Origin: Sphaerolaimus hirsutus
Taxonomy: Eukaryota; Nematoda; Chromadorea; Monhysterida; Sphaerolaimidae
Assembly: GCA_964036195.1 (NCBI GenBank)
Contig: OZ038456.1
Location: 992,001 to 1,056,000 of the forward strand
Length of the DNA: 64,000 nt
Reading direction: 5' to 3'
Shown here: positions 7,501-62,012 of the stretch, piece after piece
How the letters are laid out: each line of letters opens with the position of its first letter
How positions within the stretch are numbered: position 1 is the stretch's first letter
Notes under the pieces: model-generated
Database searches by the model: none
Told to the model about the DNA's origin: nothing
What the model saw: only the letters and a program-made list of their open reading frames with translations
Made by a program: the position numbers and the translations under genes

Positions 7501-10500
7501 CAAAGTGATAATAATGGATATGCCACACCGCTAACTGCTACTGCATCTCAAGAGAGCGAAATAACCACCATTGCATCCTGGCGCCGTGGTTAAGAAAAGC
7601 GCCATGGCGCTTTTGGCGCTTGGCGCTAAAACGCCCTGGCGCCATTTGCGCTTGGCGCCGAGGTCCGGAAAAGCGCCATGGCGCTTTTGGCGCTTGGCGC
7701 CAAAGTCCTGGCGCTTTTTCCATCACTATACAAAACCCTTACAAGATTACTTTACAAGGTTACAAAACCCCTACAAGATTACTTTACAAGATTACCAAAC
7801 CCTTACAAGATTACAAGATTACAAAACTTCAATGTATATTTACCTAATAATTAAAATTCACTTTCCCCCCGAGTACATAGATAGAACGAAAAATATTTTC
7901 TTGGACCCAACGTTGTAAAAAAACGTAAGATACTTTTCACATAAGAAAACGTAAAATCAAGTATTTTTTCACTTTTTACACTGGGAAAAGTTCGGGAGGG
8001 GGCACTTTATTTGCCCCACTTTTTCCCCACCCCTCCAATTTCACCCACCGTGCCCCAAAATCCCATGACACTCTTAATCTCCGGCAAGAACCAAAAAGTG
8101 GTTGTTTGCGCAGCCAGCATCACAGAAATTACAGCGCCCTGCACCAAGAGGGACCGTTCCGCTTTCGCCCTGGGGGCAGTCCCGGACCCTGTAAAATGTC
8201 AAATGTCATGTAAAGTGTCAAAAGTCATGGAAAATGCCCTGCAAAATGGCAACTCGGTTGCCATTTTGCAGGGCATTTTCTATGACTTTTGACACTTTAC
8301 ATGACATTTGACATTTTGCAGGGCATTTTCTATGACATTTGACACTTTGCATGACATTTGACATTTTACAGGGTCCGGGACTGGCACCTGGTGGCGTTGT
8401 GCGCGCTGACCGAGTTGCGCGTGCAGCGGAGCCGAGTAAATAGGGCCGCGTAGGTGACCAGGATTAGCCAGGGCACCGTTTTCACCACCCAGGATTGGAT
8501 GGTCGTCCACACCACCGCCTGCGAAGGTCGGGTCTGGTGTAAAGCGCCGTTGCAAGCTTTGGCATTGGGCCAACACATTTGTGACATCGCAAATTTGTGT
8601 CAACCGAATTTCAACTAAAAAATAAAAAAAATTTAATAGCATCACACTTAGCAGCAACAACGCCAATTAAGTGTCACTATATAAAGTTAAATTATGCTTT
8701 GAATGTCAGATAGGAATGTTGAAATGACATAATTAGCCAAAATTTAGCCGAGTTAAGTGGACAGGAATTTTGATGTCTACTAGTGTGTGTAGGCCCATGG
8801 CTATTTGGCGACGAAACCACGTGGGGGTTTTTCGTTCCATTTGTCATTGACGATGATAAACACTTTACCACCCAAGTCCGACAGTTATTGTGCCAGTGGG
8901 GACAATATAAATCTTGTAAACTTGGGGTGGGAGAGATACTACCTATTCATTAACGATGGCAAACAATTGGAATAAATTATTTAAATTTTTAAGTGTTTTT
9001 TTCCTAAACTAATTTTTAGTCTGTTTTTTGAGTACATCTTTATGTTATTTTACAACCTTGCCGCTGTTACCGCATACGTACCTAGTTTGCCTCTGCTGCT
9101 AAAAATCCATGTGAATATGATGTTTTTAGTTAAGTTTCTGCTTTTTTTACACATTTTCAACAAAAAAAAAAGACAAAAACATCAAAAATTCAAAACGTTT
9201 TTGAATTTTCGAATCATCATCTATCTGCCATAGTTACCATTCATGCATCCAGTGGCGTAGCCAGGGGGGGGCGGCCACCCCCCCCCCCTTCCGGGGTGAG
9301 ACATGGAATTGTAAGGAAATGTGTTCTTGTGCAACGATTTTGGGGTCAATTTTCAAAAATAATGCCGCAAGCGGGCATTTATGCTTCACGTTACAGGAAT
9401 TTTTACTTAACGGGTCGCCATTGCCTCAAGCTGTGTGAAAATGCACTCAATTGTGTCCATGTCGCTGTAAATGTATGTAAAATACATACATTTACAGCAG
9501 TCTGTGGCGCCAATGGCGCCATGGCGCGGTACCTACGAATGGCGCCAGCGCTACCCCCGTTCGCTGGGCCCCGTAAACAATCCGCCCCCCCCCCCCGCTC
9601 AAAAATCCTGGCTACGCCACTGCATGCATTGTAAAAGGGTATAGATCGGTCTGGTTACCCACAGGCCACTGCATTTCTTCCGTAGGCCCGCATGCGTAGG
9701 TCCAGTAAAATGGCGAGTGATTGTGCACCTTTGGGCAGCCGACCAGAATGATGCCCAGGGCGCAAATGCCGCACGCCACCAGCGAGCCGGCGAACCTGCA
9801 GTGGGGCGTGGCTATTTTGCTAGGTGTCCAGGGGCCAGATTAAATTCTCCCTACAGATTTGTAGGGTAGGGCGTACGCCCGATAGATTTTTTTAAGTTCA
9901 GCCGCATCCACGCACATGCACCGAGAGCAAGGCGGTTTGTAAAATATACGAAACCATCCCTTAAGGTCGCCGATATCGCATAATGACGTATATCACTTCG
10001 ATTTTGGCACGGAAATCATGATTTCGTCATTTCTTGGCCGTCGGCCAATTCGTTTTTTATTTTATTTTGTCGGGCGGGTTACTCGCATAAGTCGCGCTTT
10101 TGTACGCTCGTGCATGCATTTCTTTCTTGTCGCTGCCCTCATGGTTTCGGTTGCAGACAGTGAACACTAAAAAAGTGACCACCTGACTACACAAAAGCGC
10201 GAGTTATGCGAGTAACCCGCCCGACAAAATAAAATAAAAAACGAATTGGCCGACGGCGAAATCATGATTTCCGTGCCAAAATCGAAGTAATATACGTCAT
10301 ATTGCAATATCGGCGACCTTAAGGGATGGTTTCGTATATTTTACAAACCGCCTTGCTCTCGGTGCATGTGCGCCGATGCGGCTGAACTTTAAAAAATCTA
10401 TCTGGCGTACGCCCTACCCTGCAAATCTGTAGGGAGAATTAAATCTGGCCCCTGGGGGGTTTGTAGATTTGGACCCCTGCGGGGGTTCATATACCATATT

Positions 10501-13500
10501 TTCTCGAAATACCCCCAGGACCCAGGTGTTTTCGAGCTGGGGAAAAATAACCCCCCCCCCCCCTCAAGAAATACCCCCCCTCTGAAATGATGTACATCAT
10601 GTATGTTAAGCGGCGTTTACACTGCGAGCTGTGCCAACAAATTTTTTTCTGTCGGCAATGGTCATTTTGTCACGACAACGCACAAATTTTTCAAAAATTT
10701 CGCCTGTGCCGATAAAAAAGCCTCGTTCAACAGAAACCGAACCGACAACGAAAATATGACAAAAAAGCCTCGTTGAATTCCGGGCGAACCGACAACGAAC
10801 ATTTGGACGGATTGGCAATTAGTGTGATCATTTTTGGAATGAGGTATTGTAGGTAGAAATATGGCTAACTAATCATGCGTAAAAACGTAACGACAATTTT
10901 GCGCAGACACTCCGACGACTCGAGAACGACCATGTGCGACCGAATGACTACCCGCGGTGCACAGGGAAGTCACAGTGAACGTGCGGTTCGCTGTGCACTG
11001 CAAATCCACCAACGAAGCCGCAGCCCCAGGACGGTACGCCCGAATGGACACTACTGCGGCCATGAATTTAATTGTTTCTTTTCCGTTAATTATTTAATTA
11101 CTTCCCGTGTGACGCTAATTTTTATTTTAGTGGTTCATTAATTAAGTTAATTAGGTTACCCACATTTTGAGTTAATTAAGTGATTACTCTCGTTTTTTCT
11201 TTTTGCATTTTCCCAATATGTACTGTCGAACGTCATAATTATTAGGTTTTTATCAAGTTTACATTTTAGTTAAAAGGGTGCAGTGTCTGGGAATGGGTGA
11301 GAAAGACTTTAATGTTTCTAGTTAAGCTAACAGGTGTTGACTCTGTTAAATGCTTAGACGCCCCGATAGATAACATTCAGAAAATTCCCCGACCAAGTGC
11401 TTTTTACTTAGGACTAGGTAATGGGTGGAAAAGTGGCAAACGGCAATTATTGTCACATGCGACTGCAAGACACATGCAGAGCACAGTTTACAGTGAAGAG
11501 CACAGTAGTGCCAATTAATTATTCCCATCACCCAGGGTGATTGGTGAACTCACAAGTGCTAGTGTTTTGTGGCGTGTGCCCGAAGTTTCCAACCCTTACC
11601 CGGCAATGCATTAACCTTGAGCAACCCCCGCAAATGAGCGTTCTTTCTGTGGCCTTGGTCGGGCGCGCTATAAAAATATTTTTCACCTAAAGGGGCGCAG
11701 GTTGATAACACGTGTCACACCACCTGCTCTCGACTGTACCGTAACCTCTGAATAGAAACCCAGTTCCCGACACTCACCTACGAGATAAATTGTGTTTTAA
11801 TTACGTCAGTGATAACCACAGTTACTTTACGCTTGACTTAAATTACGTTTGCACCCGTTTGTTTAATTAGTTAATTTTCCCGCATTTAATTAATTTACTT
11901 GTGCCTTGTACGTTATGTTTACGGTTTTCCAGTGATCATTGAATTTGCCTTATTGATTCGCTTATTATGGTTAATTGTTTTGTCTTTGATTTAGTATTCA
12001 GTTCGATTATGGTAGATTCTGGTGATTATAAAACGCGCTGATTTTACATTTTTTCACCCACTAGAGGCTATACGACTCACTTGAGCTATTGTGAAATTGA
12101 CTCTGACTATATCGCTAAATAAAGTTCCCGTGAAACCAACTTGGTCCCCCTGAAGCATACTAACTGCTTGAATTTTAATTTGAATTTTATTAATTTCGGC
12201 TTTTCATTAATTACGGCTTTTTAACAATTAATTGAAGTAAACCGCCGGCAGCAGTTACGAAAGGGATTGGTAAGTTGCCGTGTCCGTCCTCAGGAACTGT
12301 CAGGACCCCAAGGGGTACTGGCGCCGTTCCTGATTTGCGTGTAAAACATCCCCGTACCATAAAACCAATTATTTATTTAATTAAGCACGCAAGTGGAAGC
12401 GCAAAGGGACCGGAATTTGCAATTCTCTGCCGCGGCAAAATTCGACGAGTGGCGTATTTTTGTGGTAAAAACGGAAAATAGTAAAATTAGTAAAAACGTA
12501 AAATATCTGACAACTGGTAGCGTAGCGAGTGGTTTCCTAAGCAAGCCATAAAGTTTTCTGTCTGGGGCGCCTGATCAACGCCTCTACAAAAAACGGCTTC
12601 ACGGATAACGAGTCACCCCAAAGGGAATTGAGATCGAGGGGGCCAGCAAGCTTACAAGGGGACACCATAGAACAAGTTTGGCACGCTGCATTGGAGAAGC
12701 AAAAACAAGCACGAAGGCGCGCGCGACAACAGAAGGCTGGGCAAGAAGTGGACGCACAACTTGCTGCAGCTGAGAGTCAAGCAGGAGACAGTGAGTCGAA
12801 CGATTCGGTTAACCCTGAAACAGAGGCGCCGGAAGCGCTAGAGGAGAGTGAAAGTCAACGCTGGTCTGGACAGACAGCTGAGGACACCCCGGTAATCAGG
12901 TTATCAACGGTTGAAGGTGCAGGGCCTGCGCCAGACAGTTTCAGTCAGTGGAAGACGCCAGCTGTACCGGCAGCGGCGCGGCAGCTAACGTCCAGCGCAG
13001 AAGCTGAAGAAGCGCCTGGGACAAGCAGACAAGCTGCAGGAAAGGAAGCAGGTAAGACAGGTAAGTGGTCTAAGCTTCGGAGGACATTGGGTTGGAGCGC
13101 GGGCAGCTCATCCATATCGCCTGGAGTGCGATCGGGTTCTGAAGTCGGTTCAGACGGATACGTTGGTGACAGCGAGCCTCTAGGGCAGCCGTCGATTCAA
13201 CGTGATTACCCTTTGATTGCAGCTGAGCTGGGAGCTACTGCAGATCAATTTCCCGTGATTGAAAATACCGTAGCGGAATTACTGGAGACAGCGGCGCAGA
13301 GCGGAGACACTTCCCCGGCGCTGCAGTTAAGCCCACCGAAGAGCACTTCGATGCCGAGAGACGTGTCAGGTAACAGCAGTCGGAATTTATCGAGCGACCA
13401 GTCGAGATCGCAGAGCGCAACTGCAAAGGCTAGACGCCAGTTAATTAAGACTGAAATTTCAAGTAATCCCCCCGTGATAATTATTAGCAGCCCCGCAAGC

Positions 13501-16500
13501 AGAATGACAAACAACGGCGCGAACCAGACGGCGGCTCCGGCGCTGGAAGACAGGTACGCAAAGGTCACTAATGCGGACTTAATTTACCAAGCTACCATAA
13601 TGGATCTGGACCCGGTGCAAACAACGCCAACCTGTGCACAATGGACACCTAAAAAGGCATGTGCAGCTGCGAAGAAATGGGCAAACATGATGAGTCAGGC
13701 GAGACCGGTTGGTGCTTTCTCACAGAATGGTGGTGAACCAGGGGACTTGCATATGGTGACACTAATTAAAATTGCTATGAATTTATGGGGAAGTGACCCA
13801 GTCGCCGAGGTACCTAGGGTGGAACATTTTTTGCAGGAATTCGAAGCGCACCACAGCGTACATGGCGACGATATAGTTGACCTGACGACTGCGTACCAGC
13901 AGCATAATCAAGCCTTACAAAATCAGAATGCGACGCTGGGAGGAAATTCACCGGCCAGTGGCCAGCAGCCGATAGTGCTGACCAATGGTCAAGCAGCGCC
14001 CTTACAGTCATCAACGGCACCAGCGGCGCCCCCGTCGGCAGCTGGAACGAACCAGGTGAGAACTGTTACGCAGCGGCGCGCTCGATCCCGTTCGCCAGCA
14101 TCCTCCAGGAGCTCGTCGGCTACATCTGAAGTGGCGCGGCCTACAGATCCGGGACAAAATTGGCAATTAGAACAAAGCAATGCGGCGGTCATTACAGCCC
14201 TAGCACAACAATGTGGATATTTTCGTGGCAAACCAAATGAGGGTTTCAGGGACTGGAGAAGGAGCTGGGATACGGTATGTGATGCGCTGCGCATAAAATT
14301 ACAGGAGCGGAAGCCGCTGGTAAAATTGTTTTTGAAAGGCAGTGCCAGAGCCATTTTCAACACTCGATACAGAGAATTGCGCGACCTGAACTACAAGGAC
14401 ATGATGCAAGCACTGGAAAAGTTCTATGAAAATCCGAATGACAAACATCATGCACAGAGAGAGATTTTTGAGACGCGACAGGGCGCAGATGAGTCGGTAC
14501 TGGAATGGGCGGTACGTTTGGAAAAGTTGATAAAACGCGCCTATCCCGGCATGGGTCATGAAAAACGAGGTGACACATGCATGATAAAATTTCATGGAGG
14601 GCTGAGAAATGAAATTCGGCGCAATGTACCTGTCACGGCGTCTATCACTTGGAAAGAGATGGTTGACAACGCACGCGCACAAGAAAGCTTTCTGGAAGCA
14701 GAACAGAGCCAGAATAAGGGAGAAAAATCCAAACAGGATGTGGTTGCCAGCGCTACAGACAAGGTAATGGACAGGTTGATGGCGCTAAACATGCCCGCCA
14801 TGGCTGGACTGCCGTCCCAGGCCGACAAGACGTTAGAGACAATGGAACAGAAAATGACTGAGAGTGTTGCCAAATTCGACTCTGTGCACCAAGAGATAGC
14901 GAAGAAATTAGCGCAACTGGGCGCATTGGAAGGTAAACTTTTGGGATTGAATAGGGACCCCCCTAAATTGCCCCCACGAAAATTTGACAAAGGATGTTGG
15001 GAATGTGGCTCCGAAGAACACATCAGATATGAGTGCCCCAAACTAACCCCAGAACAAAGGGAACAGTATTTCAAAAGGAGCCGCGGCGGCGGAGCATCCA
15101 GAGGAAATGGACGTGGGCGCGGCGGAGGACAACGTGGTGGCTATCAGGGAAATAATCAAGCCCAAGCGATGCAGCCAGGTATGGTGCCCATGCAATACGC
15201 ATATCCGCAGTGGCAACCAGCGCAGCCGATGCCTGTACAACCAGCGCAGACGGTACAGAGGGCTGGCGATATGAACATGCAACCGCAAATGATGGCTTAT
15301 CAAACGCCGCCAGCTAACTGGATGGCTATGGGACCGGACGGGCGCATGCAACAATATAACATGCAACCGGTACAGGTAAGTAACCCCCACGTAGAGTCGC
15401 TGAACCCCACGCGAGTGTCCAGTACGACTGGAATGACCATGCATGTGCGCGAAGATGATCGCTGCATGATGATACGTCCCGTTAATAAATTAATCCCTGT
15501 GATGCAAGGCTTGGAATTAGAGGATGAGGAACCTGACGAACTGGTTCCAGAGTCACCCGAAGAGCAGCAGCGCACTACTGGAATGCATGTGCTCGCGCAG
15601 GAGCGGGAATTCTGGATCAAACCGTGGGCATACATGCGAACTGAAAAAGGTTACTTGTTTCGAACTACTTGGCTGGCCTTCTTACGCAGGATCGGAATGC
15701 ATGATTTGAGGGAAACGGACTGTACGCTGTGGCCTAATTGCCCTGCAGACAACCACTCAGACACGCTGACGGAGGTGCCCTTGGACGTGCTCATGAACAT
15801 CAGTCTGGACCCGTTCCTGTACGCCACGCCGGCCGCCCTGCCGCCACGTACTGGCTCCAGCAACCAGGTAGACAGGTATATGGGTTTTCTGTCTACTGAG
15901 GAAGGGGTGCGCCCCGCGCCGCGCGCATATTCAGAACCCCCCTACATGCCTCAGGTCGCACAGTCGCTGTTTTTCGTATTGGCAGTTGGATTAATTATAA
16001 TGGGATTAGCCTTTTTGCCGGGCGCGGGCGCGACTACCATGCCCTCGTTTCCACTGCTCTGCAGTGACTTGACGGATCACTACGATTTATACACGTACCC
16101 CCCCCTACCCAATTGCACGGCTATTGTTGACACTACGGCGTCATTAGAACGGCCACGAAAATTGACACTGACAATCTACAAGCGAAATATGGTAGAATAT
16201 CGTGCGGCAGCACACAGGTGTGTGGCCTCTATCAGAACGGCAAAGACGTATCAGAACTTCTGGGGCGACGTCACGCTGGAAAAGTTTGATTCTAATCCCC
16301 GATCTGTGGGCGCCGCCGAGTGCGAAGGCATGATTAAATATCACAAGTGCAACAATGGGCCCATGACCCCTGTGAGTGATTTGGACAACGCATGGGACAC
16401 TCAATACCCCACCAATGTTAGTTACTCAGGACATGGACTGTACTGCTGCAAATGGGTGAGTGAAACGACGCCACACTGTGGGCTGTTTCGAGGGGAAGTA

Positions 16501-19500
16501 CGAATGAGATATGGAGCCAACACCATGCAAAGCACGCTGGGTGATGTTAGTAAGTGCAATTATGAAATGGGTGCATGCACACTAGAAGACGGCAGCCAAT
16601 TAACATGGAAACCGAACCCGAAGGCGGAATGCCCGTATGAAAAATGGCGCGAAATGCATGGACGCATTAGACAGGATATCTGGCTAGCCGATGATCATAC
16701 ACTATCACTGTCTTTCAGAGCACATGAAGAGGTTGAATCATGCGGCATCAAATTATGGAAATCGGATCAGGATATAGTAGTGGCCCCATTTGAAAAGGCA
16801 GTGATTCGAAGCGTCAGACAAAAACGAGCGCAAGGTCGACCCACGCTGGGAATAGTGAGCGCAGGCCAATTAGCAGCCAGCATGCAGGCAGTATACGAAA
16901 CAGCAGAGCAAACCATGCGTGCACAGGCCGTAGCCACCTGCAAGAATGTGCAACACTTCCAAGAATTTGTGCGCCTGGCTATGAGTGAACACGCCACTAC
17001 GACAGCCCGCTGGTACATGAATGATAACGAATTAATTGCTAAACCCGCGCCGGACGGATTTTTGGTTCACAAATGTTTCGCGGTAAAAACATACGAGATC
17101 ATGAAAGAGGAAAAGTCTCCAGAATGCTATGAAACAGTACCTGTGCAAGTTAGTGTACACGGGCAAAATGTGACGTTGCACATGAATAGGTTGACAAACA
17201 TTTTGCACTTTCAAGCGATCCCGGGATCATGCACCAATGCTCACAATCGTGTGGTAATGTTAAATGGACAGTGGTACAAATATCTACCGGAAGTAGGCGG
17301 CCTGGAACATTTACCTATGTATAACACGCACAGTTTCCCGCAGAAATGGCAACAGGAAAAGGTCAAGGATGTGCATCATCAGATTTTTGCCGCCACGACC
17401 ATGTACAACTTGTCAGAATTATTGCCGACTACCACCCTAAATGACGTGTGGCATGCATATTCAATCGTGCGGCAAATTACGCAGGGGGCGGAGCCGAGGG
17501 TGGAATCACACATGCAAAGGCATCGAACCTTGGCAAAATCGGTCTTAGCGCTGGGATGGTGGGACTTTGACACCTGGCGCACCTGGCTACAAGTATGGAT
17601 TTATCTGATATGTGCACTGGTCACCATGCAGTATTTACTAGCCGCGCTCATGGCTGCAGCGCCGGAAACGGCCGTGACTTTGGTGAACAGGGCAAAGGAA
17701 AAAATTAAAAGGCGACCGAAGACAGAAGGAAAGTCCAATATCATTGTCGAATTGGCTGAAGACCGCCCTAGCGAACAGGTAAAGGTAAGAACGGTAATTA
17801 ACCCGTGCGTGGGAATGCCAGGTGGCATGCCCGCACTCACGGGCGCGCGTCGTTTTCCCGCTATACAATACAGTATCAACAGAAAATGCGATCTGGAAGA
17901 AGAATCGGTGTGCATGATCACTTTCTCGACGGAAGAAAGAGATAACATACATCAAGTAGCCAATCGACGTGAAGAGATTGTGCATGTGTATTACAGCCCA
18001 TCCATCACCATAACCATCGATGGGAGAGAATATCGAAGATGTCTACTGGACACAGGCGCCATGCGTTCATTATGCAACAGAGACGTGCTGATGCGACACA
18101 AGGAAAAGGCTACTAAGCATGACGAAGTTTCACCTATTGGAGCCCTTAGGTGTGCAGCAGACTCAAAACTTTTGGTATTGGGACAAATGGAAGTACCGGT
18201 AACCATGGGAAACCACACCTTCGGGATTGTGTTTCAGGCAGTGAACGGATTAGCTGGTGAAATTCTAATTGGTGCAGATGTCTTACGGCACATGGTAGTA
18301 GACCTACCTGCAAGGGAATTACGAATCCCTACGGCTAATGCGATCATTCCCTTTGATAACCCAGACCCGGAAGTGCAGCAGCGCAGAATTTATTGTGAAC
18401 GCCATTGTGAACGAAAAAATAGAAATTCTGGCTAGACATGAAGCGCTAGTGACGGCGAAATTATCTGCCCCCATGGATGAAAAGTTATTCACAGTCATGG
18501 GATTGGATACGGTAGGCGAACGCTGTGGAGTTATGGCTGCTTCAGCGGCCTATGAAACTAGTGCCCCTGTGTTTCAGGTGAGATGTGCAAACGTACGAAA
18601 TCAGCCTGCAGTGCTACAGGTAGGACAGCGTATTGCGGTGGTCGAACCGGTGGACTGCGTGCTGAAGGTGAAACCTGGAGACCCCCCCGCTGAATGGGTG
18701 AAGCAGTGCTATGACAGAGATGTGTGTCGACAGGTTCAAGCGACTGAACCCCCCCCCCAAAGTAGCCGAAGACAAATTAGGACCTCCACTGCAAGTTGCA
18801 TGTCCAGATGGACACGTGATGGAATTTACCGTGCCAGAAACATTGACGGATGAACGCAGAGAGGAACTGAAAAAGGTGATTCTGCAGTACAAAGAAGCTT
18901 TTGCCCGACATAAGTATGACATCGGCTACAGCGAATTAGTGGACTACCGGTTGCAATTAGTGGACAAAAAACCAATTGCATGCAGAATGTACCGGTTGAG
19001 TCTGGATGATCAGCAATACTTAGAAAATCATTTGAGATGCCTCATTGAGCACGACATCGTGGAACCCAGCACGAGCCCGTATTGTGCCCCCACGTTGGTG
19101 GTATCCAAACCGGATGGATCGAAGCGGATGGTAATTGATTACAGACGCCTGAACGCTGTTTTGCACGCTCCCCAATTCCCATTACCCCGCTTAGATGAAA
19201 CAGTCGAATCTTTATGTAGCTGCAAGTATTTTTAGCAGTGCTGACATAAATCAAGCTTTCTATAACATTGCTTTGCATCCAGATGATCGACACATTACGT
19301 CATTTAGAAATGTTTTTGGACAATTTCAACTGAAACGTTTACCAATGGGATTAAAATGCTCACCCAGTTTAGCGCAGCGCTGTTTTGAATTAGCTATGGC
19401 CGGTTTAATACATCGAAATGTGTTATTATACATCGACGATTTACTGATTTACAGTGCAACCTGGGAAACACATTTATATGACATAGGGCAGGTGTTGGAA

Positions 19501-22500
19501 AGATTAATTAGGAATAATTTCAAAATTAGCCCAAAAAAGTGTTTTTTCGCACGCGTCACAGCTGTACGCTTTCTAGGATTTATGATTGGCCGCGACGGCG
19601 TGTGCGTACCAGATGATAAACGGCACATAATTCAGGACTGGCCGGTACCCACTACCGTAAAAGAGGTCAAGGGATTTCTGGGAGCTATCGGTTTTTTCAG
19701 ACGCATGATTCACAGATGCGCAGAGCTAGCTGTACCCTTGTCAAATCTCACGCGTACGGGACCAAGAGAAAATTACAATAGCGACACCCCGGTGGATTTG
19801 ACATCGAAACCCAAGGCACTGGAAGCTTTCCATAAGCTCAAGGAAGCATTGTTAGGAAGCCCATGTCTGCAGTTTCCCGATCCCAAACGTATGTTTATAA
19901 TTATCACGGACGCCTCTAAAATTGCTGTTGCAGGCGTGTTAGCACAACGAGCAGAGGACGAGAAAATACTACATGCATGTGCCTTTTACAGCCGGAAGTT
20001 AGGTGCAACCCAAAGCAAATGGCCAGCAATTTCACTAGAAGCATGTGCAATCTACGAAAGTATACGTAACTGGCATTGTTATCTGGCGGGACGGCCCTTT
20101 GAAGTCTGGACCGACGCCAAGAGTATTTCGTGGGTAAAAAATCCTAATTTAGAGACTACCCCGCACGCCATGCTACACAAGTTCGCGTTAGCAATTACGC
20201 CGTACCAAATCACGTTCAAACACTTGAGGGGAAAAAGCAATGAACTAGCTGATGCATTGTCTAGAAGACAAGACGCACCAGTGGTATTTGACGAGAAAAA
20301 GGACCTGGATGAGGCTTTTGAGCAGTTCGCACAAGTTACGTGCCGTGAAATCGCTATCCCACACGATAAGCAGGTTACGGTAGCTGCGGCGAGCAGGGCA
20401 GCGTACCAGCCAATCAGCGTAAATGAGGAGGCGGAGTTTCTGCGACCAATCAGCGACCGGACGCGCGGGCGAAAAGAGGCGGAGTCACCCGGGCTGCGAG
20501 AGTGGCAGAGGAATGCGGAAGCACCTGGAACTGGAACAATGGCTGGTGGTTCAGGAGCCGGAAATGAAGTTGTTCCGGGTTTGACGAGTGTAAACAAGCG
20601 CAGTACGATTATGGCACTACCTCCAATGACTTCGGTTGACAAATTGAAGCGACTACAAGCAGAAGAACCGTACATAGCCACAACTATAGAAGTATGTCGC
20701 GCAGATAATTTTTACAGCGCCGCGCCGTATTTTATTGACCAATACGGTTTGTTACGTCGCCAGGCGGGAACGTCCCAAATACCAGGTATACAATTATACG
20801 ACCCCGTGTGTATTCCGTCGGAATTAGTTCCATTCGTGTTAGAATTAGCTCACAATCACCCTACGGCGGGCCATTTAGGAATAATAAAAACATTTGAAAG
20901 ATTACAGGAATTCGCGTGGTTTCCAGGAATGCGGCCAGAAAGTGCGCGCTGGGTTGCCACCTGCCCTTCGTGCAACGCCAAGAAAGGTCTCAGAGCGGCA
21001 ATGCGAACTCAAATGGTGTGCCGCCAGGTAGCCAAAAGGCCAGGTGATGTGATAGCGGTAGACGCAATAGGACCTTTACTAACCACGAAACGCAGAATTT
21101 GGAATAGTATTTGTTGATCAGTGCACACGTTTTGGAATTGCTGTGCCCGTTCCCGACATAAAACAAGACACAGTATCATTTGCATTTCTGTTGCACATTT
21201 TGCCTATATTTAGTGTGCCGGCCATTATACTCAGTGATAACGCCCCTAGCTTTACCGAGGGCACTTTTGCCAAGCTTCTACAATATTTGAACGCGACCCA
21301 ACATACATCATTTGCGTACACCCCCAAGAGCAACGGAATGGTGGAACGTAGGAATGGTGTTCTGATGGAAATAGTATCACACTACGTAAATCGTACACAT
21401 GACGATTGGGACATACATTTAGGCGCCGCGGTACACGCGTACAACACATCGAAACACCCTTCCTTGCAAACCACCCCCTATGCGTTGCTATTTGGCAAGC
21501 CTGCTGCGTCCATGTGGGAGCGTATGATCGAGCCTCCCCCTGACAACGAGGCATTGCCCTCATTGCCGCATAAGCGCGCTCTTATAAATGAATTAGGCGC
21601 GCGTCTGACCACAGCACGCGAAGCAGCGCACACCGCTTTAGCAAAGGCGCAGCAAAAAGAGCAATTTTACGCCAATCGCCGTGCGCGCCGATTGAATGTG
21701 CAACGCGGGCAAGCGGTACGCGTATACACGCCGCGTATTACTCAGTTGACGGGCCCTAGTAAGAAATTCGTGCCTCGCTTTATCGGCCCGTATGAGTGCA
21801 TTGATTATGCCCACCCATTAGTGACTTTATTCAACAATATTAATAAGAAAATTTATGTAGTTCATGCAGATCGTTGCAAGGCAACCAGTGAATATTTAAT
21901 TCCCCCTTCTTACAGTGAATTATACGGCGACGACTAAAATTGATTAATTAGCTGATTAATTAGCCGTTACGATCATCGCCGTCGCGTCAAACAGCACGAA
22001 GCCAGGTACCACAGGTATGAAGTGTGTGTGAAAGTGTGTGTGTTTTTAGGAAGCTCGTGCACCCCTTTTGCCCACGGGCAACTGGACCGCACGAGTTCTT
22101 GTTACTTTCCCCGTTCATAAAACTTCGCAATTAATTATTTTATCACATTATTATAATTATAATGGCTTCGGCCTCTCGCAAACGCCCATTTGAAGGTGCA
22201 GACAATAAAATAAAATAAATAAATAAGGTGCCCATAAAATCCAAGGAGACAAATACACATGGTGCCTGCGGCGGCGGAACCATTCCCCCGCGACAACTTT
22301 ACCGCGCGCAGCAGATGAAAAATGGACCGGAAATCTACCCCAGCAGAGGGAAATTCGAAGGTTGGGTAGATAGGGTGTATATTGACTCGGGCGCCGACGG
22401 GCATGTTGAGTATCAGTGCCATGTGAGAATTTCTGAGCAGACGATGGCGATACTCAGCGAAAACGAGCAGTGGGTGAATGCGGATGAAGCCTATCCGTAT

Positions 22501-25500
22501 TTTTATTATTCGAATAAGCGGGCCAAGGCGGCTAGGGACAAACGGACCACCCAGCTGGTGGATTTGTGCGCGAGAATTCAGAAACAACACCCCTCGATGT
22601 TCCTGCCCCTGGTGCGCCACGGGATGCGTTTCTCGGCGACCGTGATCACACAAAAAATAGAAAATCCCCGGTACTGGGAGTTTACCGGCGTCGCGATATG
22701 GGGTAATCAGACAAAGTGCCCCTTAAACGTTGCCGCCCCCGTGGTCGTGAGTACGCAGGGCACGCGGCGCGTCACTCAAGCGGCACGTACATTGACGCGC
22801 GGCGACACTTCCGGCTACCAGCCCTACACGAGCGACTGGAAAACGGCGCGGCTGCGAGCGGCCTTCACGCCGTCGAATTACAAAAATCTGGAACCGCTGG
22901 GCGCGGCGGAGCGGGGCGATGCCGGGCCGGAAAAGCTGGTCATTTTGCACAGAGAATATGTGAGTGACAGCAGAGTGGAAAATTTGAGTGCTGGGCAGTT
23001 GGGGCTGGCCCACGTCGAATATCACGACCTGAACGATTTGGACGTGTTCGGCGACGAATTCTACGGCCATGCGTACGGGCTGCAGGTCGCCACGGCCGAG
23101 GACATCAGCACATCGGGCATCCAGCCAGACACAGAGAACCGAGACAACATGGACGCGTTTCTCAGGTATAAGTTGGGTATTTTAGCAGCGGCCCACTGCT
23201 ATAACGAGTCATTTTTGTGATTTCGGGCGAAACGCGCAACGGATGTGTGCGCGCATGTGTCCTGGGAACACACGCCGCAGGCCACTGCATGCGACATTAT
23301 GGTGCGTCGCCCGGACCCAGAAGAATTACAAGCTGATACTTTCGAAGGACCAGAAGAGCAGCGCGTTCGTCTGCTGGAGCAGGTAAATACGCAGACACAG
23401 CTGTTGAACCAGGCGACGCCCATGTCGGTGTTGAGCTTGGTGCTGGCCAGACCGGACGAAGACAAACCAGCGGCGGGCAGCCCCAATCTATCAGTCAGAA
23501 TTACCAGCGTGGAATCAGAGCCAACCACTACAATGCTGCATGCGAAGTTGGACATGGCGGCGTCGCAATCAGCACTGCCCCGAACCCTGGAGAGTGGAAG
23601 ATACATGGTGCGCGGCTCGAACGACTCGCCCAATTACGACCGAACCATGCGGTCGCTGCAAGCCGCCCTGAACAAAGCGCCGGTCGGCTGGGTGCCAAAA
23701 GTGGTTCAGGGGTCAAAAGTACTCATCCTGGAGGCGCAAATCCAATTAGCAGTGATATTGAATTTGCGTCTGCTGGATGACGAAACTGACTGGGCGCTAA
23801 TTAGCCGCGAGGCTAATGAGTTGTACGAATCACTGTTCAGAGGAAAAAACGAACAGATGATTCAGGCCAAATTAGGTGAGTTTTTACCGCAGCAGGGACA
23901 GGTAGAAGTTTTAGGAGCTGTGATCACAGCCGTGCAAATGCGCAAACCCCTTTTCATTATGTGTGACTCGCCTTTCGGGTCCGGGAAGACGACCACACAA
24001 AATCAACTGGCGTATGTGTGCTCACGCGGCTATAATTATTATAACTCGAGACCCAGGGTGCGCGCGGGCTCCGACTTGCCATCGGACAAGCAGCCGAACG
24101 CCAAATACCATTCGACGCTCATCACGTGCACGGTCAACTCGGCGGCCGACGAAGGCGCGCGCAGGGCCCTGACCAATCTGAATAAATTAGGGCAGCGGGA
24201 TATTTTTGGGGCTTTGGAAGTTTTGTTGCGGGAGCGCGCGAAATGGACCGCTATGGCTGATACGCCATTTTCTGAAATGGAAAAACTGGAGGGTTTTGAA
24301 GAATTTTTGAAATTAAGAGCGGCATTTCCGGTGCGCGTTTTGAGCCCCATGTGGGAAACTGACCCCACTTACAATACCACCCCCGCGACCCAATTGCCAA
24401 CCCTGCATACCCTAGCACAGCGAACCGGCCACAACATCGTCCGCCTCAGCCCCGAATGGACGGCAGCGCTGGAAAAGTACGACGGCGCCAAGAAGGACTA
24501 CGAACTGGTGGACGAAATCATCAACAACTGCACGGACGACGCCGTCATACGCGCGCAGCTGACCGAACAGGTGCCCTTTCTCACCGCCGACGATGGAGAC
24601 GAGCAGCCATTCGATGACTTCGAGGCAGGCGTGGCGGGCGCCCGGGCTGGTGAGGCTAGTTTAGCTGATCAGGGATTTTGGGGTAAGGTGCTGCGTAGGG
24701 CGCTGTCTAAATATGTCAGGGCTAAGGTCAGGCTGCACCGGGTGTTCTTGGAGGTGGTGCAGCCCGGTCAAATCCATGTCACTTTAGACTCCGCCCACGA
24801 CGCCCGTATAAAAAGTGTGACTGCGTGTGCGGTAATTATTGACGAAGCGTCTTTGGCGTCTGACGCTGCAGTAATTAGCGTGGCTCAGGCGGCTCAGCTC
24901 CCAGTGAACGGCATGCTACTTCTATTTGGAGACAGTAAACAATTGACGCGTATGATTCGCGTGCAAGACTGGGTGGAGCCTGTCCTGAAACCCGACCCCA
25001 CCCTCATTGATAGGCTCACACAATACCAACTATGTCCCGTGGTTCACTTGGAAACAGTGTTCCGCGGGCATCGCCAGCTCATTCAGGCCAACTCAGTGGC
25101 GGCGTACAACGGACTGCTACGCGCCTACAACGACACCGCAGCGCACGGCGCCACCATGTTGCCCGCGCCTGGCGACTTCGAGGATGGCGTCATGCTGTCG
25201 TCGACGTTGGTGCACCAGGGCTGCGAATCGAAAGAGGGCATGTCCATTATCAACAAGAAGGAGCTGCGCATCATCCTGCACCTGTACGACTACCTCGTGG
25301 CCACGGTGAAAGAAGATCCCACCCTGCCCTGGGCAGATCTCACAGATCCCGCTAGTTTGCTAATTGTGTGTTTTTATGCGGCGCAGGCGCGCGCCCTAAT
25401 TAGTCGACTAGTAGCCCATACAGAACACGACGCGGCCTACTGGGCCACCCGCGTAATTACTGCCAACAAAGCACAGGCCCGGGAAGCGGAAGTGGTCATC

Positions 25501-28500
25501 ATTTCCTGCGTGCGCGGCAGCCCGCCAACCGACTCCGCCCAGCTGGATGCCGATCCCAAGAAGGCGTACGGTAGAGTTGGATTTGTAGCGGAGTTGCCCC
25601 GGGGAAACGTAGCCACCTCCCGCGCCAAATGTGTGCGCATCGTGGTGGCCAACGCCGAGACCATGTTGTGGTCAACCTTTTTCCACCGGTTTCTGACGGT
25701 CGAGCACAAAGACGACCGGATTTACTCTTACGAGTCAGGCCAAATTTGGGGAAACGTGTTGGGATTTTGGCCTCCGGAATGGCGCCCGCGGGCCGACTTG
25801 AAAGAACTAGTCGGACCGGACAGATACCCGGCCCTTGAAGAAGAACTGCAGGCGGAATGTTTGTCTGACATTGAAACCGCCACCGCGGGCTCTGACTCCT
25901 CCGCAGACGCGCGGGAGGAGGGTGTGCCGGTGTTGGAGGAAGTGGTGCCCGTTGTCGAACCAGTTTACCGCCCTAATGAAGAATATTCCCCCATTAGCAA
26001 CGACATGGCGGCCATGGCACTGCAGAACGTAGCCGAGCCCCCCTCGCCGCCGCCCGAGCACCACGACGCGGTCGAGGCCATCCCACTGCCACCGGAGGAA
26101 GCTCCAGCGCAACAGGTAGAACACCACATGGAAAATGGTAATTGTGAAAATTGATACGAAACAATTTTTGCCTAAGTCAATTATAGAAAGTTTCAATGTA
26201 ATGATTCATGCACAACTTTTGTCATCAGGAGAAACAGACAACTCTGTAACAAAAAATAATCAGCAAACAAAAAACATACTTGTTAATATTCCATGAAAAC
26301 AATTAGAAAATCTTGTCGACGATCAATTTTCACACGCACGGACTGCGACATGTCGGTCGAGCAGGTAACTTGAATGTTGATTCCAAACTGCCCATCCAAC
26401 AGTGGCACGATGCTGTGAAATAACACAGATTAGTAGTCTGATTAATTAGTTTCCAAAAAGAAACACTTTTTTCTTACATCGAGCCCTGAGCAGGAACCAA
26501 AATTTCGAAGTTTCGAGCACAAAAAGCCGGCACGGCAGAAAGCTGATGCCATAATTCGAATGAAGACGAGCCATATTTGCACCCCCAGGGCATGTGACTG
26601 CCACAGCCGTCCACCGAAAAATGCAGAGAAGGCATGATTTTTGAATAACCAAAAAACGGCGCAAACACTTTTTCTGAACATGTCGTTTTTAGCCCGGAGG
26701 TAAAAAATTAATGGCTGGTGGGATTGTAGGTAGAAATATGGCTAACTAATCATGCGTAAAAACGTAACGACAATTTTGCGCAGACACTCCGACGACTCGA
26801 GAACGACCATGTGCGACCGAATGACTACCCGCGGTGCACAGGGAAGTCACAGTGAACGTGCGGTTCGCTGTGCACTGCAAATCCACCAACGAAGCCGCAG
26901 CCCCAGGACGGTACGCCCGAATGGACACTACTGCGGCCATGAATTTAATTGTTTCTTTTCCGTTAATTATTTAATTACTTCCCGTGTGACGCTAATTTTT
27001 ATTTTAGTGGTTCATTAATTAAGTTAATTAGGTTACCCACATTTTGAGTTAATTAAGTGATTACTCTCGTTTTTTCTTTTTGCATTTTCCCAATATGTAC
27101 TGTCGAACGTCATAATTATTAGGTTTTTATCAAGTTTACATTTTAGTTAAAAGGGTGCAGTGTCTGGGAATGGGTTAGAAAGACTTTAATGTTTCTAGTT
27201 AAGCTAACAGGTGTTGACTCTGTTAAATGCTTAGACGCCCCGATAGATAACATTCAGAAAATTCCCCGACCAAGTGCTTTTTACTTAGGACTAGGTAATG
27301 GGTGGAAAAGTGGCAAACGGCAATTATTGTCGGCATGCGACTGCAAGACACATGCAGAGCACAGTTTACAGTGAAGAGCACAGTAGTGCCAATTAATTAT
27401 TCCCATCACCCAGGGTGATTGGTGAACTCACAAGTGCTAGTGTTTTGTGGCGTGTGTTCATGCCCGAAGTTTCCAACCCTTACCCGGCAATGCATTAACC
27501 TTGAGCAACCCCCGCAAATGAGCGTTCTTTCTGTGGCCTTGGTCGGGCGCGCTATAAAAATATTTTTCACCTAAAGGGGCGCAGGTTGATAACACGTGTC
27601 ACACCACCTGCTCTCGACTGTACCGTAACCTCTGAATAGAAACCCAGTTCCCGACACTCACCTACGAGATAAATTGTGTTTTAATTACGTCAGTGATAAC
27701 CACAGTTACTTTACGCTTGACTTAAATTACGTTTGCACCCGTTTGTTTAATTAGTTAATTTTCCCGCATTTAATTAATTTACTTGTGCCTTGTACGTTAT
27801 GTTTACGGTTTTCCAGTGATCATTGAATTTGCCTTATTGATTCGCTTATTATGGTTAATTGTTTTGTCTTTGATTTAGTATTCAGTTCGATTATGGTAGA
27901 TTCTGGTGATTATAAAACGCGCTGATTTTACATTTTTTCACCCACTAGAGGCTATACGACTCACTTGAGCTATTGTGAAATTGACTCTGACTATATCGCT
28001 AAATAAAGTTCCCGTGAAACCAACTTGGTCCCCCTGAAGCATACTAACTGCTTGAATTTTAATTTGAATTTTATTAATTTCGGCTTTTCATTAATTACGG
28101 CTTTTTAACAATTAATTGAAGTAAACCGCCGGCAGCAGTTACGAAAGGGATTGGTAAGTTGCCGTGTCCGTCCTCAGGAACTGTCAGGACCCCAAGGGGT
28201 ACTGGCGCCGTTCCTGATTTGTGTGTAAAACATCCCCGTACCATAAAACCAATTATTTATTTAATTAAGCACGCAAGTGGAAGCGCAAAGGGACCGGAAT
28301 TTGCAATTGTCTGCCGCGGCAAAATTCGACGAGTGGCGTATTTTTGTGGTAAAAACGGAAAATAGTAAAATTAGTAAAAACGTAAAATATCTGACAGTAT
28401 GAATTTCGCCATTTTCAGCAAATATAGGACAGCCTCCCGTAAGACACTACCGCTTCGAATTATCCCCCCGCGTGAATTACCTACCTCTTTGAATTATCCC

Positions 28501-31500
28501 CCCCCCCGCGTGACTTACCTACCTCTTCGAATTACCCCCCCCCCTGTGTGAATTACCTACCTCCTCGAATTACCCCCCCCCGCGTGAATTACCTACCTCC
28601 TCGAATTATCCCCCTCCCCGCGTGAATTACCTAACGCCTCGAATTATCCCCCCCCCCCGCATGAATTACCTACCTCCTCGAATTATCTCCCCCGCGTGAA
28701 TTACCTACCTCCTCAAATTACCCCCCCGCGTGAATTACCTGCTGGCTTGAATTACCCCCCCCCACCGCGTGAATTACCTACCTCCTCAAATTATCCCCCT
28801 CCCCGCGTGAATTACCTAACACCTCAAATTATCCCCCCTTGTGAATTACCTAACGCCTTGAATTATCCCCCCGCGTAAATTACCTACCACCTTAAATTAT
28901 CCCCCATGTGAATTACCTAACCTCTCAAATTACCCCCCCCCTGCCTGAATTACCTACCTCCTCGAATTATCCCCCTCCCCGCGTGAATTACCTAACGCCT
29001 CAAATTATACCCCCCATGTGAATTACCTAACGCCTTGAATTATCCCCCCCACGTAAATTACCTACCACCTTGAATTATCCCCCATGTGAATTACCTAACC
29101 CCTCGAATTACCCCCCCCCCACCTGAATTACCTACCTCCTCGAATTATCCCCCTCCCCGCGTGAATTACCTAACGCCTCGAATTACCCCCCCCCCGGTTG
29201 AATTACCTAATGCCTTGAATTATTCCCCCCCCTGTGTAAATTACCTACCACCTTGAGTTATCCCCCCCACGTGGGGGGGGGGGGGCTGGCCTGCCGGCAC
29301 GTGTTTATATCTCGGGAACCGCTGGGTGAAAATGGTTGATTTTTTAATATAATGTGGCCACACAAGCTGGTTTTCAATGTTCCTTTTTGAAAACTCTTCT
29401 GGGCGACGCGTCGCTGTACGCTATTCAAAAGTGTGCAATTTGCACTTTTATTTTTCAAAAAAGTGAAAATTGATTGAAAATTGGTTTCGGTAAGTCACAA
29501 AGTTCACATTTGGAGAACATTTTTGAAAACCGTACGGCGACGCGTCGCCCTGTAGCGGCGACGCGTCGCCAACGTCGCTATACGCGTTGCCTAGTTTGTA
29601 ACGTATGCAGACGTAGAAAAATGCAACAGTAGTCGACAAAATAATAAAAATAATAGTTTTGAGACTTATATAAGTATGTAGATGGTGTAAAAAGTTTTTA
29701 AATATTTCAACAAATGTGTAAACATTTTTGAAAAATGAACATGGACGGTGACGTAAAGCGACGTCGCCCTACGTTGCTGTACGTGCCAGTTTTCAAAACC
29801 ATTTACACATTTGAAAGATGCGTCGCTGTACACACATAATGTACAGAAATCGTCGCCGAGCGTCGCTAGTTTTCAGAATTTTGCCAAACTACTCCAAAAT
29901 CCTACAAAAACCACTGGATGGATGGTTTCATGTAAAATTCGCACAGTATATGCAGTATTTTATGCTGCATTGAATGGTATGCTCTGTGAAAACTTGGAAT
30001 GTCTGTAAAATGAACTAAATTTTTTTTAAAATTATGCCATTTCGGCGACGTTCAGGCGACGTCACTAGTTTCCATAACTTAATACCAATTTTGAAAAGTA
30101 TGGTTGGGCTGAAAACTCCCCGGGCAGTGGTCGCCATTTGCGCTAGGGGTAAGCTACGGTCATAAAATTTTGACACATTAACATATCAGGTGTTTTGAGT
30201 CTTCACCCAAAATTTCACCCCTCTAGCTTCACCCACTGCGTTACTGTGGGGGTTAAAATTTCAGTAATTTTGTACTGATGTACAAATGGTGCTCTAGCTC
30301 AACGCTGCTTTAAGTTGTGATCATGAAGCTTTGGCTAGAGTAAGCCACCAGTGTTGGCAATGTGCTGATAGTATTCAACACTTTCATCAACATGATTGCT
30401 AATATGGCAAATTAATATGCAGATCAGGGTTATGTGCAAGAAACATGGTAACTGTGATGGATCTTTTTGGTGATCATCTGAGATCATGTTGTATTGCAGT
30501 GATTTTAACGTTGTTTTGAAATGTGCAGTAAATAATTATGTCAATTAAATTTCATTTGTGTTTCATTACTAATCTGTAGTGGACACATTACCTGTGTTCA
30601 ACAGCAGTGTGCATGCAAAATGCATCCTGTATTAACCTGTATTGACCAACCGTACAAACAGAATGATGAATTTGGGTGTGAGAGTAGTGACAGAATTGGT
30701 AATATGGACTAGGTGTATGATATCATAGCTAATGTTGTTTAGTGCTGCAAATTGCCAACACTGGTTGCTTACACTAGCCAAAGTTTCATGATCACAACTT
30801 AAATGAGTTTTTAAAAAGGTTCACATATGTGTTAAATTTTGTGACAGATTAAAATATGAAATGAAAACATTTCTGAAAACAATACAATAAAATTGTTTTT
30901 ATTTTTTTGTGCTAGTGTATTGAATGTGAAATCATCGCAGTCAGTGTTTACTTGTAGTTCATTTTTGTGGCTTTCATTTACATACAAAATCAGCTGTTTG
31001 AATTGCACTTCTGATTTTTAAAAAAATTATAAAGTAGATTGTATAAAAATATCATTATTTGTTTTGCGGAAATGTTTTTGAATTCAGTTTTTTGTTGTTC
31101 GAAGTGCAAAAATAAGGGCTTTTTACTGTGATAATGCAATAATTACAGATACACAGATGTAATTTTAAAATTTTTTTTAATGTTTTAAGCATAACCACAA
31201 TTTCTTCATCATCTTTGAACTTCTATCGCAAAACATGGTATCAAAAGAAAGAGAAAAAAAAACTGGATATATATCTGAGACGGATATCATATACAATGTA
31301 AAACTGAATTTTAAAAAAATATTTATAGTTAGAAAATGAATTAATCTTTAAAAAAATGTATAACAGCACTAAAAATATACAATACAGTCCCAAAAATCAA
31401 GCATAATTTTCTGCATCACATGCCACTTACAGCTTGTCCTACAAGTGCGTACTTATGTTGCAAAAAAATATTTTGTCTGCAGCATTTTACCATAGTTTTC

Positions 31501-45415: not shown

Positions 45416-47659
45416 TAAACACCTTCCCGATCAAGTCCGGCCGCCTATTTTTTTTTCACTTCGCAGGCCATATCTCCGGTTGCGGGAGGGGTCAGAGTTG
45501 TTAAAATACAGGTATTTTTGGTAAGTGTAAGTGTAAATACACTTTCCACATTTTATGTATGGATACTGTAAGCGTAAGGTATTTTTAAAATACCTAGGAA
45601 AGTGTAAAAAAAAGTGTAAGTGTAAAATTTTTTTTAGAAAGAGCTCTCACTGTTGAGCATCAGAAAACACCACTGTTTTCACCTTTAGATCAATTTTTTA
45701 TCATTTTCATGCATCACATTTTACTGCTGTATGAGCAGCCGTATGAAACATTCCAGACTATAACAAATTAAGTGGTATGAAGTTGTGTAATAATGGCACG
45801 TTTTCAGTGTTGATATTTTACTGATTAAACTATGTGATACACACTGTTTAAATACAAGAATGACATACAGCAATAATGTCAATGCAAAAGCCAGTGTCCA
45901 GCAGGTGAAATTGATCTTGTCCTGTTTACAAAGTATGATGAAACTGTAGAATACCATGAGTACTGATCAAAGGTACACGTTTGTACATTTGCCATATTTT
46001 CTACATTCAATGCATAACGGCATGGTTGCACTGTGCAGTTATTTTTTGTACATGACCCTGTTTTATGCTTCCTCAAATGCTGAAAACAGGGCCATCTGAA
46101 AGAAAAAATACACTTTCTGTATCCGGGTATTTTGCCGAGGAAAGTGTAAAAAAGTGTATGGGTATTTTATGAAAGTGTAGGTGTAAGGGTAAATATAAAT
46201 ACCCATTTACCCGGGTATTTCGGGTAAGTGTAAATACACTTTCGCAACTCTGGGAGGGGTGGTAAACTAAAACTTGGGTGGTATATAGGCGCAACCCCCC
46301 ACTACCCCGCATGAATAAATGGGGCAGCAGCGACTCACTATAGAGGGGGTTGCCATATACGTGAAAAAAATTTGCAGCGTTTTCACTGTCCCGCACAGGT
46401 CCGGCCCCCGGTTGATTTCTTACACTGCGGGTCCCGTATCTCCAGCTGTGGGAGGGGTATAGATCTAAAATTTTTGGGGATGTGTCGCCAACACCCCTCC
46501 CCTACTATACACTGGCCAGGCGGTTTTTGGCAACTCACCACAGTGTGGGGTGCAAAGTTTAAAATATATTAAAATGTTACTGTCCCACACAAGTCCAGCA
46601 TCCAATTGAATTTCAAAAAATGGACACATTTGTGTTGTTTTAACACTCATGTGGTTGACAATGTGAAATAAGCATGAAATATCCTCTAAAAAATATCTTA
46701 TCCGACCTAAACTGGCCACCACATGAACCCCTTCCCCCAAGTGGGTGACAAAAAAATCACTTTTTACAACTTTTTTGTTAGACACTTGAACGGCTGGTTT
46801 ACAATAATTTATAGGGGAGGGTTAAAGGTCTCAAGTTGTGTAAAAAATCTTACCTCAAACATGCCTTCATAAGAAAATTTGCTGGGGGTGAATTTCAAAT
46901 TGTAAAAATGACATCATTGCAGGAACAAAAATAGGCAAAATTCACGATTTGAAATTCACCCCAAGCAAATTTTCTTATGAAGGCATTTTTGAGGTAAGGT
47001 TTTTTACACAATTTGAAACCTTTAACCCTCCTCTATAAATCATTGTAAACCAGCAGTTCGAGTGTCTGATGAAAAAGTTGTAAAAAGTGATTTTTTGTCA
47101 CCCACTTGGGGGGAGGGGTTCATGTGGTGGGCAGTTTTATGTCGGATAAGATATTTTTTAGAGGATAATTCATGCTTATTTCACATTGTCAACCACATTA
47201 GTGTTAAAACAACACAAAAGTGTCCATTTTTTTAAATTAAATTGGATGCTGTACTTGTGTGGGACAGTAACATTTACATAAATTTTAAACTTTGCACCCC
47301 ACACTGTGGTGAGTTGCCAAAGACCGCCTGGCCAGTGTATAGTAGGGGAGGGGTGTTGGCGACACATCCCCAAAATTTTAGATTTATACCCCTCCCACAG
47401 GTGGAGGTACGGCACCCGCAGTGAAAGAAATCAGTGGGGGCCGGACCTGTGTGGGACACTAAAAAAGCTGCAATTTGTTTTGCACTCGGCAGCCCATTCT
47501 GTAGGGGGTCGCCGCGACCCCTTCAATTCATGCGAAGTAGAGGGGGGTTGCACCAATATCTACCCCAAGTTTCAGCTTCTGGCGCGTCCTAGAACAGGAG
47601 ATAGGACGTCAGAAGTAAAATAAAAAATGGGGGGCCGGACTTGATCGGGAAGGTGTTTA
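45416..47659. mobile_element. Long-hairpin element, TAAACACCTTCCCG ends, copy 1
   Basis: Ends are TAAACACCTTCCCGATCAAG and CTTGATCGGGAAGGTGTTTA. Removing the nested hAT-like element leaves about 1.48 kb folding into two long arms centred near 46900, with an AAATTTGCTGGGGGTGAATTT segment repeated inverted. No convincing ORF. Confidence 0.75.
45493..46252. mobile_element. hAT-like element (CAGAGTTGTTAAAA), exact 8-bp TSD
   Basis: 760 bp. Ends are CAGAGTTGTTAAAATAC and TTTCGCAACTCTG. GGAGGGGT is duplicated exactly at 45485-45492 and 46253-46260. Interior holds AAGTGTAAATACACTTT words. Nested in the hairpin element. Confidence 0.88.
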
Positions 47660-60821: not shown

Positions 60822-61082
60822 CGCAATATAAATGACTAAGTTACCGTATTTCCTCGAAATACCCCCAGGGGGGTTTATTTTTCAGAGTGGCAATTTTGAG
60901 AGAAAAACGTGAAAAATGCAACAATAACCACCATTTATAAGTTTTTACAGCTTTTTATAAGGATGTAGATGGTATCAGTAAAAAAATGGCTAAAGCCAAA
61001 CAAAAAGTGGACGCTGCCTCCACAGCAAATAGACATGAAGTGTGTCTCTCAAATGGACATGAAGTGCGTCCCTCAAATGGAC

Positions 61083-61620: not shown

Positions 61621-62012
61621 ACAATTTGAAATCATAACCCTCGAAGACCCATATAGTGACAGCATCACATCAAACAGCACTATATTTTGATTAAAAATAT
61701 GCAACCCATAACTTGGATGAGCGCCAAATTTATATGTGACCAGGTGAATTTCATCCTACAAATATCGGCTGGCATGGTGCCAGCGCGTGCCAATGATACT
61801 TGCATATGCTATGTGTTAAATGACATATCCAAAACTCATTGAGAAATGTCTCTTAAACCAATATGGTCCGCCATTAAGAGTTAAGGAGTGTATCAGAATT
61901 CTATGTACAACTCATATTTGTGACAATAGCATTATGTGATTGTTCACAAAAAAATTAACTAGAAATATGGATCACAAGTATCCATTTATCAAAGTTTTTC
62001 AATTTAATTTTT

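Follow-up and report, generated by a model that had tools for sequence, protein, structure and literature searches.

The window analyzed here is a 64,000-nucleotide stretch of the genome of the nematode Sphaerolaimus hirsutus (assembly GCA_964036195.1, contig OZ038456.1, positions 992,001 to 1,056,000), and within it a complete long terminal repeat (LTR) element spans positions 10848-28396. The element has defined LTR ends and target duplications, shares its gene order with other copies in the same genome, and carries two long coding units, both under selection. We consider it likely that the window holds a damaged member of a Ty3-type family that is young, multicopy, and env-bearing. Specifically, the first open reading frame (ORF1) would end at a UAG and be continued by a +1 frame for reverse transcriptase (RT), RNase H, and integrase, the second (ORF2) would be a single helicase gene, and expression would follow the mechanism proposed below.

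The element is flanked by the duplicated target sequence GTAT (10844..10847 on the left and 28397..28400 on the right, with no strand applying). Alignment of the LTR pair delimits a 5′ LTR of 1665 bp (10848..12512, TGTAGG...CTGACA) and a 3′ LTR of 1672 bp (26725..28396), both on the plus strand, as are all features of the element given below. Across 1665 aligned columns they show 4 substitutions, and 7 further columns are gaps. The 4-bp target duplication and near-identical LTRs described in an earlier note made from the sequence are thus confirmed. The 5′ LTR contains a TATA-like box at 11669 and an AATAAA at 12118, and we infer that a stretch beginning with TGG, 2 nt past the 5′ LTR (12515..12532), is the presumed primer binding site. 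Scans of the window for tRNAs and Rfam families gave no matches, and no further pieces of the element, whether LTR or protein, were found elsewhere in the window. The same note called this copy nearly intact, which it is not: its pol is open only in pieces spread across four frames, and a stop codon interrupts its helicase gene.

Could the long frames have arisen by chance? The internal region was simulated 200 times under an order-1 Markov model: the longest stop-to-stop frame had a mean of 205 codons and a maximum of 339, versus observed frames of 1964, 977, and 640 codons. Chance is therefore rejected. A 333-codon frame upstream of the helicase falls inside the simulated range and would not pass alone; we accept it as real because of the other copies, in which it belongs to a longer open frame under selection, and not because of its length.

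Evidence that these parts form one family comes from the rest of the genome (348 Mb, 762 contigs), which was searched with the helicase as the query. At least 47 full-length matches exist, the window's included, among the 47 scored of 553 candidates; every scored match is stop-free and spans the 977 residues in full, at 98-100% identity. This count is a lower bound, biased to intact copies. In ten other copies, LTR matches flank both sides, the 3′ match being partial in one, and the 5′ LTR starts no more than about 30 bp from the expected position in nine and about 440 bp off in the tenth. Exact 4-bp target duplications bound 12 of 15 other copies (8 of these ten and 4 of an additional five). 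In the thirteen full LTR pairs, 0-4 substitutions separate the two LTRs over 1675-1682 columns; in the partial pair, there are 6 over 1414 columns. The Gag-Env-protease stretch is uninterrupted in six of the ten copies, has one stop in three, and carries a larger interruption in one. A check of Env in 29 further copies found it at full length in 27 (26 of them stop-free) and cut by the edge of the fetched stretch in one; together with the ten copies above, this covers all but 7 of the 46 other copies, six of those 7 lying on small contigs and one in a stretch running past the contig end. Thus, the earlier note's view that env and helicase both belong to one Ty3-type family is borne out by copies with the same order, and LTRs, Env, and Pol stand at the expected places in those examined. 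On one contig (G000:C6:7579013-7597820), two same-strand helicase matches lie 15877 bp apart, the spacing expected of tandem copies sharing one LTR.

The family bears a clear signature of selection on proteins. Ratios of nonsynonymous to synonymous differences (pN/pS) were computed pairwise among open-frame copies (six of ten for ORF1, ten of ten for pol, and seven for ORF2) and range from 0.01 to 0.10 in every region, with pS of 0.055-0.18. Within ORF1, pN/pS is 0.10 for the codons preceding the first AUG, 0.08 for Gag, 0.05 for the Gag-Env linker, 0.06 for Env, and 0.02 for the protease part. Within pol, it is 0.03 from the protease end to the RT fingers, 0.01 for RT-RNase H past the frame change, and 0.05 for integrase; within ORF2, 0.06 for the N-terminal part, 0.04 and 0.03 for the helicase parts (core 0.03), and 0.09 for the tail. 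Variable columns concentrate at third codon positions, with first/second/third counts of 26/14/104 in Gag and 8/1/79 in the helicase core; the LTRs, at 71/84/77, have no third-position pattern. Successive segments of the AUG-less start of ORF1 give 0/0/5, 1/3/15, 6/0/8 (weaker), and 6/3/15 in nine copies. The third-position pattern together with low pN/pS therefore indicates that both sides of the RT frame change and the AUG-less part are translated. By the same measure, selection keeps Env and the helicase as it keeps pol. The pS values point to long divergence among the copies, but the near-identical LTR pairs, in the window and in other copies, point to recent insertion, which the earlier note had also claimed.

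ORF1, as open in the window copy, is a 1964-codon frame (12541..18435) comprising an AUG-less N-terminal part, Gag, a CCHC motif, an Env-like glycoprotein, and a protease. Pfam places the Gag core (Retrotrans_gag, PF03732, 1e-5) at amino acids 594-673 (14320..14559). A CCHC zinc knuckle at amino acids 818-834 (14992..15042; zf-CCHC 0.018) and an aspartic protease at 1823-1913 (18007..18279; Asp_protease_2 0.066) score below cut-off, and they are recognizable by the visible CCHC motif and by LLDTGA and ILIGAD, respectively. The Env-like part (15943..17664) lies between two hydrophobic stretches (amino acids 1135-1167 and 1682-1708) and contains one RQKR at amino acid 1426. Its amino acids 1328-1585 match Monjiviricetes_fusion (PF24664) at 6.9e-7, scoring 28 bits where the cut-off is 27; in two copies, the match scores 28 and 27.9 bits, with only about 260 of 653 profile positions aligned. 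Gag, Env, and protease thus occupy one frame, as the earlier note stated. The CCHC, RQKR, second hydrophobic, and ILIGAD strings are exact in all ten copies, LLDTGA in nine, and the first hydrophobic string in eight. The first AUG of ORF1 is codon 322 in nine of the ten copies and codon 271 in the window copy. Gag thus opens with some 320 AUG-less codons that nonetheless carry the signal of coding selection.

Pol is organized identically in all ten other copies: it occupies the same two frames, which overlap by about 38 nt. The first is the ORF1 frame, extending into the RT fingers. The second, at +1, is 915-919 codons long and encodes the RT palm, RNase H, and integrase. At the junction, the string TAT TTT TAG CAG (19227..19238), containing the conserved stop and shift site, is identical in the window and in all ten copies. 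Of the window copy's four pol joins, this one characterizes the family, and the other three are private. For the joins around 18.3-18.85 kb and 21.1 kb, a family-wide origin was considered and rejected, since all ten other copies lack them. Specifically, in the window, the protease-RT interval and RT fingers (18302..19235) are split over two frames by private breaks, as comparison of frames with the copies reveals; the RT palm, RNase H, and integrase zinc domain follow in the +1 frame (19195..21117, by Pfam and a solved-structure match); and the integrase core and C-terminal part continue in a further frame through a private break (21083..21937, by Pfam and copy comparison). Pfam matches RT, RNase H, H2C2, and rve in this copy, in pieces.

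In the form of recoding termed a shifty stop, a codon able to re-pair one base on, such as UUU, stands directly before a stop codon. We read UUU UAG C in RT as a programmed +1 shifty stop because the site is common to the window and all ten copies and the +1 frame beyond it is open, with the lowest pN/pS of the element. The frame change could instead be a fixed defect or an assembly error in a family that moves only via helpers, and the run of five Ts at the site and the lack of a stimulatory RNA structure there are compatible with that account; the same change, however, recurs in copies at separate places, and purifying selection is strong on its two sides (pN/pS 0.03 and 0.01), so we judge a defect or error unlikely. 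Searches of open-licence PMC papers, several of which covered just the top of a broad listing, showed no case of frameshifting inside RT, and the available part of one treatment of +1 frameshifting (PMC5009743) does not mention UUU UAG. If a programmed shift indeed occurs here, recoding in elements of this kind would have a new location, the interior of RT.

The second coding unit is the helicase gene. In the window, a 333-codon frame with no Pfam match (22219..23220) is followed, after one stop codon and in the same frame, by a 977-codon frame (23221..26154) that matches AAA_12 at 3e-24 and contains motifs I-VI of an Upf1-like superfamily 1 (SF1) helicase. The window's ORF2 is interrupted near its start and again at 23218-23220, the latter by a stop codon that 44 of the 46 other copies lack. 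Those 44 keep one open frame of at least 1327 amino acids (the remaining two have 1123 and 1009), and ORF2 measures 1323 amino acids from its ATG in the copy read. Because of this continuity, we treat the 333-codon frame and the helicase as one gene. Thus, the SF1 helicase noted earlier is present, and the unknown ORF once listed beside it is its N-terminal part rather than a separate gene. From these comparisons, ORF2 is predicted to encode an Upf1-like SF1 helicase preceded by an N-terminal part of about 345 amino acids that has no known relatives.

Matches to characterized proteins place this helicase broadly. The nearest solved chain is a “5'-3' RNA helicase-like protein” (1.9e-5), which we take to be of the Sen1/senataxin type; solved UPF1 chains match at 0.086 and weaker, and the IGHMBP2 family of NCBIfam matches at 3e-13, far under that model's cut-off. 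Pfam reports no match in ORF2 to the N-terminal cysteine-histidine zinc domain of UPF1. A helicase of the type found in plus-RNA viruses was rejected (Viral_helicase1, PF01443, 0.034 versus 3e-24 for AAA_12). Searches of viral contigs with RT, the helicase, Env, the RT fingers, and ORF3 returned no relative. By our motif assignment, based partly on an alignment, motifs I-VI are complete in seven of eight loci.

The base composition of ORF2 differs from that of its neighbors: GC content at third codon positions (GC3) is 0.65 in both ORF2 parts versus 0.41-0.53 in ORF1 and pol (p about 2e-21, comparing the ORF1 and pol pieces of one copy with ORF2 of one copy). This contrast would fit one gene with its own history. 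It would also fit a chimera, with env and helicase stemming from separate insertions nested in the window copy. Yet the same parts occupy the same places in other copies, and selection has acted across the copies' history; nested insertion is refuted for the copies tested, and we give it next to no credence. Copies lacking helicase or env at these positions, which the earlier note had associated with a chimera, did not emerge as the rule among the helicase-bearing copies tested, to which the search was confined. Nor do we find it at all probable that the helicase is a passenger gene with no role for the element: pN/pS of 0.03-0.06 along ORF2 resembles that of pol, and all 47 scored matches, being the best-scoring and hence a biased set, are full length and stop-free.

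What might the helicase do? Because the motifs are complete in seven of the eight loci, we argue for an active enzyme that would work on the element's long RNA. The proposed mechanism runs as follows. Genomic RNA would start in the LTR, and ORF1 would be translated either from a start codon other than AUG or from a spliced message. At the UAG, most ribosomes would halt, yielding Gag-Env-protease, and a minority would slip +1 on UUU UAG C and thereby add RT-RNase H-integrase. An internal signal sequence would carry Env to the membrane, making the element able to move between cells. ORF2, which sits where ordinary env-bearing gypsy elements have env, would have a message of its own, probably a spliced one, and the ATPase it encodes would act along the roughly 16-kb RNA, keeping it open to packaging and reverse transcription.

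The chief rival view is that the helicase acts against the host, shielding the element's RNA from nonsense-mediated decay or from MOV10-type restriction, and does not aid reverse transcription. Host UPF1 and MOV10 act on retroelements, the helicase is of the Upf1-like family, and the UAG comes early, with kilobases of RNA behind it. Conserved ATPase motifs and a pN/pS of 0.03 favor an active enzyme over a dead decoy, and these data do not separate a role against decay from one in reverse transcription. We regard a host-directed role as a serious, if minority, possibility. Retroviruses and LTR elements ordinarily depend on the helicases of their hosts; here a helicase gene is conserved about as strongly as pol. 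The testable notion is that long reverse-transcribed genomes need a helicase of their own or must disarm host RNA decay. More broadly, we see about an even chance that this lineage both encodes an Upf1-like helicase and depends on it, produces Gag and Env as a single non-AUG-started polyprotein, and doses RT by a +1 shifty stop within RT. It would then be a reverse-transcribing counterpart to those large RNA viruses that have an Upf1-like helicase of their own.

Several observations weigh against the interpretation of an env-bearing, helicase-encoding family with a programmed shift. The identity of Env hangs on a score one bit over the cut-off. No protein relatives were found for Env at E 1 (4298 scored candidates) or for the helicase at 1e-3 (7996 scored candidates). 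Structure models made without an alignment were too poor for use, both for Env (mean predicted local distance difference test score, pLDDT, 37.4), where a class III fold was the question, and for ORF3 (mean pLDDT 28.6). RNA structure was sought 3′ of the shift site and not found (z +0.93). The copies were found through the helicase only, best scores first, and helicase-less copies were not sought. Among the 29 further copies checked for Env, one has other DNA in its place; of the five additional copies, four have both LTRs and one is missing the 3′ LTR; and at one of the eight helicase loci (L004), motif II is changed in an otherwise open frame.

The window contains other repeats and fragments. 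A large minisatellite (28447-29266, periods about 38 and 178) starts about 50 bp past the right target duplication, and similar arrays occur elsewhere in the window. Long palindromic fold-back repeats at 46264-47578, 9828-10455, and 53820-54548 are 87, 86, and 76% self-complementary, respectively, and seem like terminal-inverted-repeat or fold-back elements. On the minus strand lie an RT fragment of another element (55603-56664, RVT_1 1.6e-19) and a sub-cut-off match (60990-61631, 0.0011) to the KDZ-transposase-associated cysteine cluster CxC3.

Regarding classification, the element has the Ty3/gypsy order of RT, RNase H, and integrase with an H2C2 zinc domain, a short target duplication, and TG...CA ends. 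Among solved structures, the RT-RNase H piece matches Ty3 best (1.2e-47, 165.8 bits), the next other family reaching 88.9 bits. RT has 18 protein relatives, the best at 34% identity over 38% of the query, and in a tree of 17 of them (one was dropped) the element sits on a long unresolved branch. Outside its own genome, the searches found no relatives beyond ordinary Ty3-type pol proteins. Nothing indicates BEL/Pao membership, given the Ty3 match and no BEL-Pao-specific Pfam family among the matches, a comparison that included no BEL-Pao reference. The literature searches, confined to open-licence PMC papers and in several cases to the top of a broad listing, brought up no Ty3-type element that carries a gene for an Upf1-like helicase.

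Known systems share individual traits with this element. To our knowledge, Ty3 itself has neither env nor a helicase. Ty3 uses +1 frameshifting, as proposed for the present element; its shift site, GCG AGU U, lies close to the gag end rather than at a stop codon in RT (PMC5009743). In insects, chuvirus-type glycoproteins, termed type III fusion glycoproteins (PMC13172572), lie close to fragments of Gypsy and BEL-Pao elements (PMC10084718). One lies within the LTR boundaries of the mosquito element Anakin, which has a BEL-Pao rather than a Ty3-type pol and for which that text mentions no helicase (PMC7642597). LTR elements of bdelloid rotifers also combine captured env with enzyme ORFs, but their additional ORFs are a paramyxovirus-type env in a separate ORF, a GDSL esterase, and a DEDDy exonuclease (PMC5408684). 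Insect retrotransposons likewise join retroelement proteins to an SF1 helicase; theirs, however, is of the plus-RNA-virus type and is found mostly in long interspersed nuclear elements, with two Copia-type fusions, whereas here a separate Upf1-like gene resides in a Ty3-type element (PMC5563155, PMC6338049).

Closest in layout are the Burro elements of planarians, giant gypsy-like elements with env in frame between gag and pol and with matches to mononegavirus-type fusion glycoproteins (PMC6431247). The earlier note knew of no lineage with the present set of genes; for the in-frame Env, Burro is a precedent. Burro elements differ in exceeding 30 kb, in an ORF1 of 4.9-5.1 thousand amino acids, and in that the description seen names no helicase (PMC6431247). 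The BIR, BCL2, ankyrin, MATH, and dUTPase-like parts of Burro, compared by description only, have no counterparts here in Pfam searches at E up to 1 (PMC6431247). Env within the Gag-Pol frame would add to Burro a second example of an env captured through insertion into the polyprotein.

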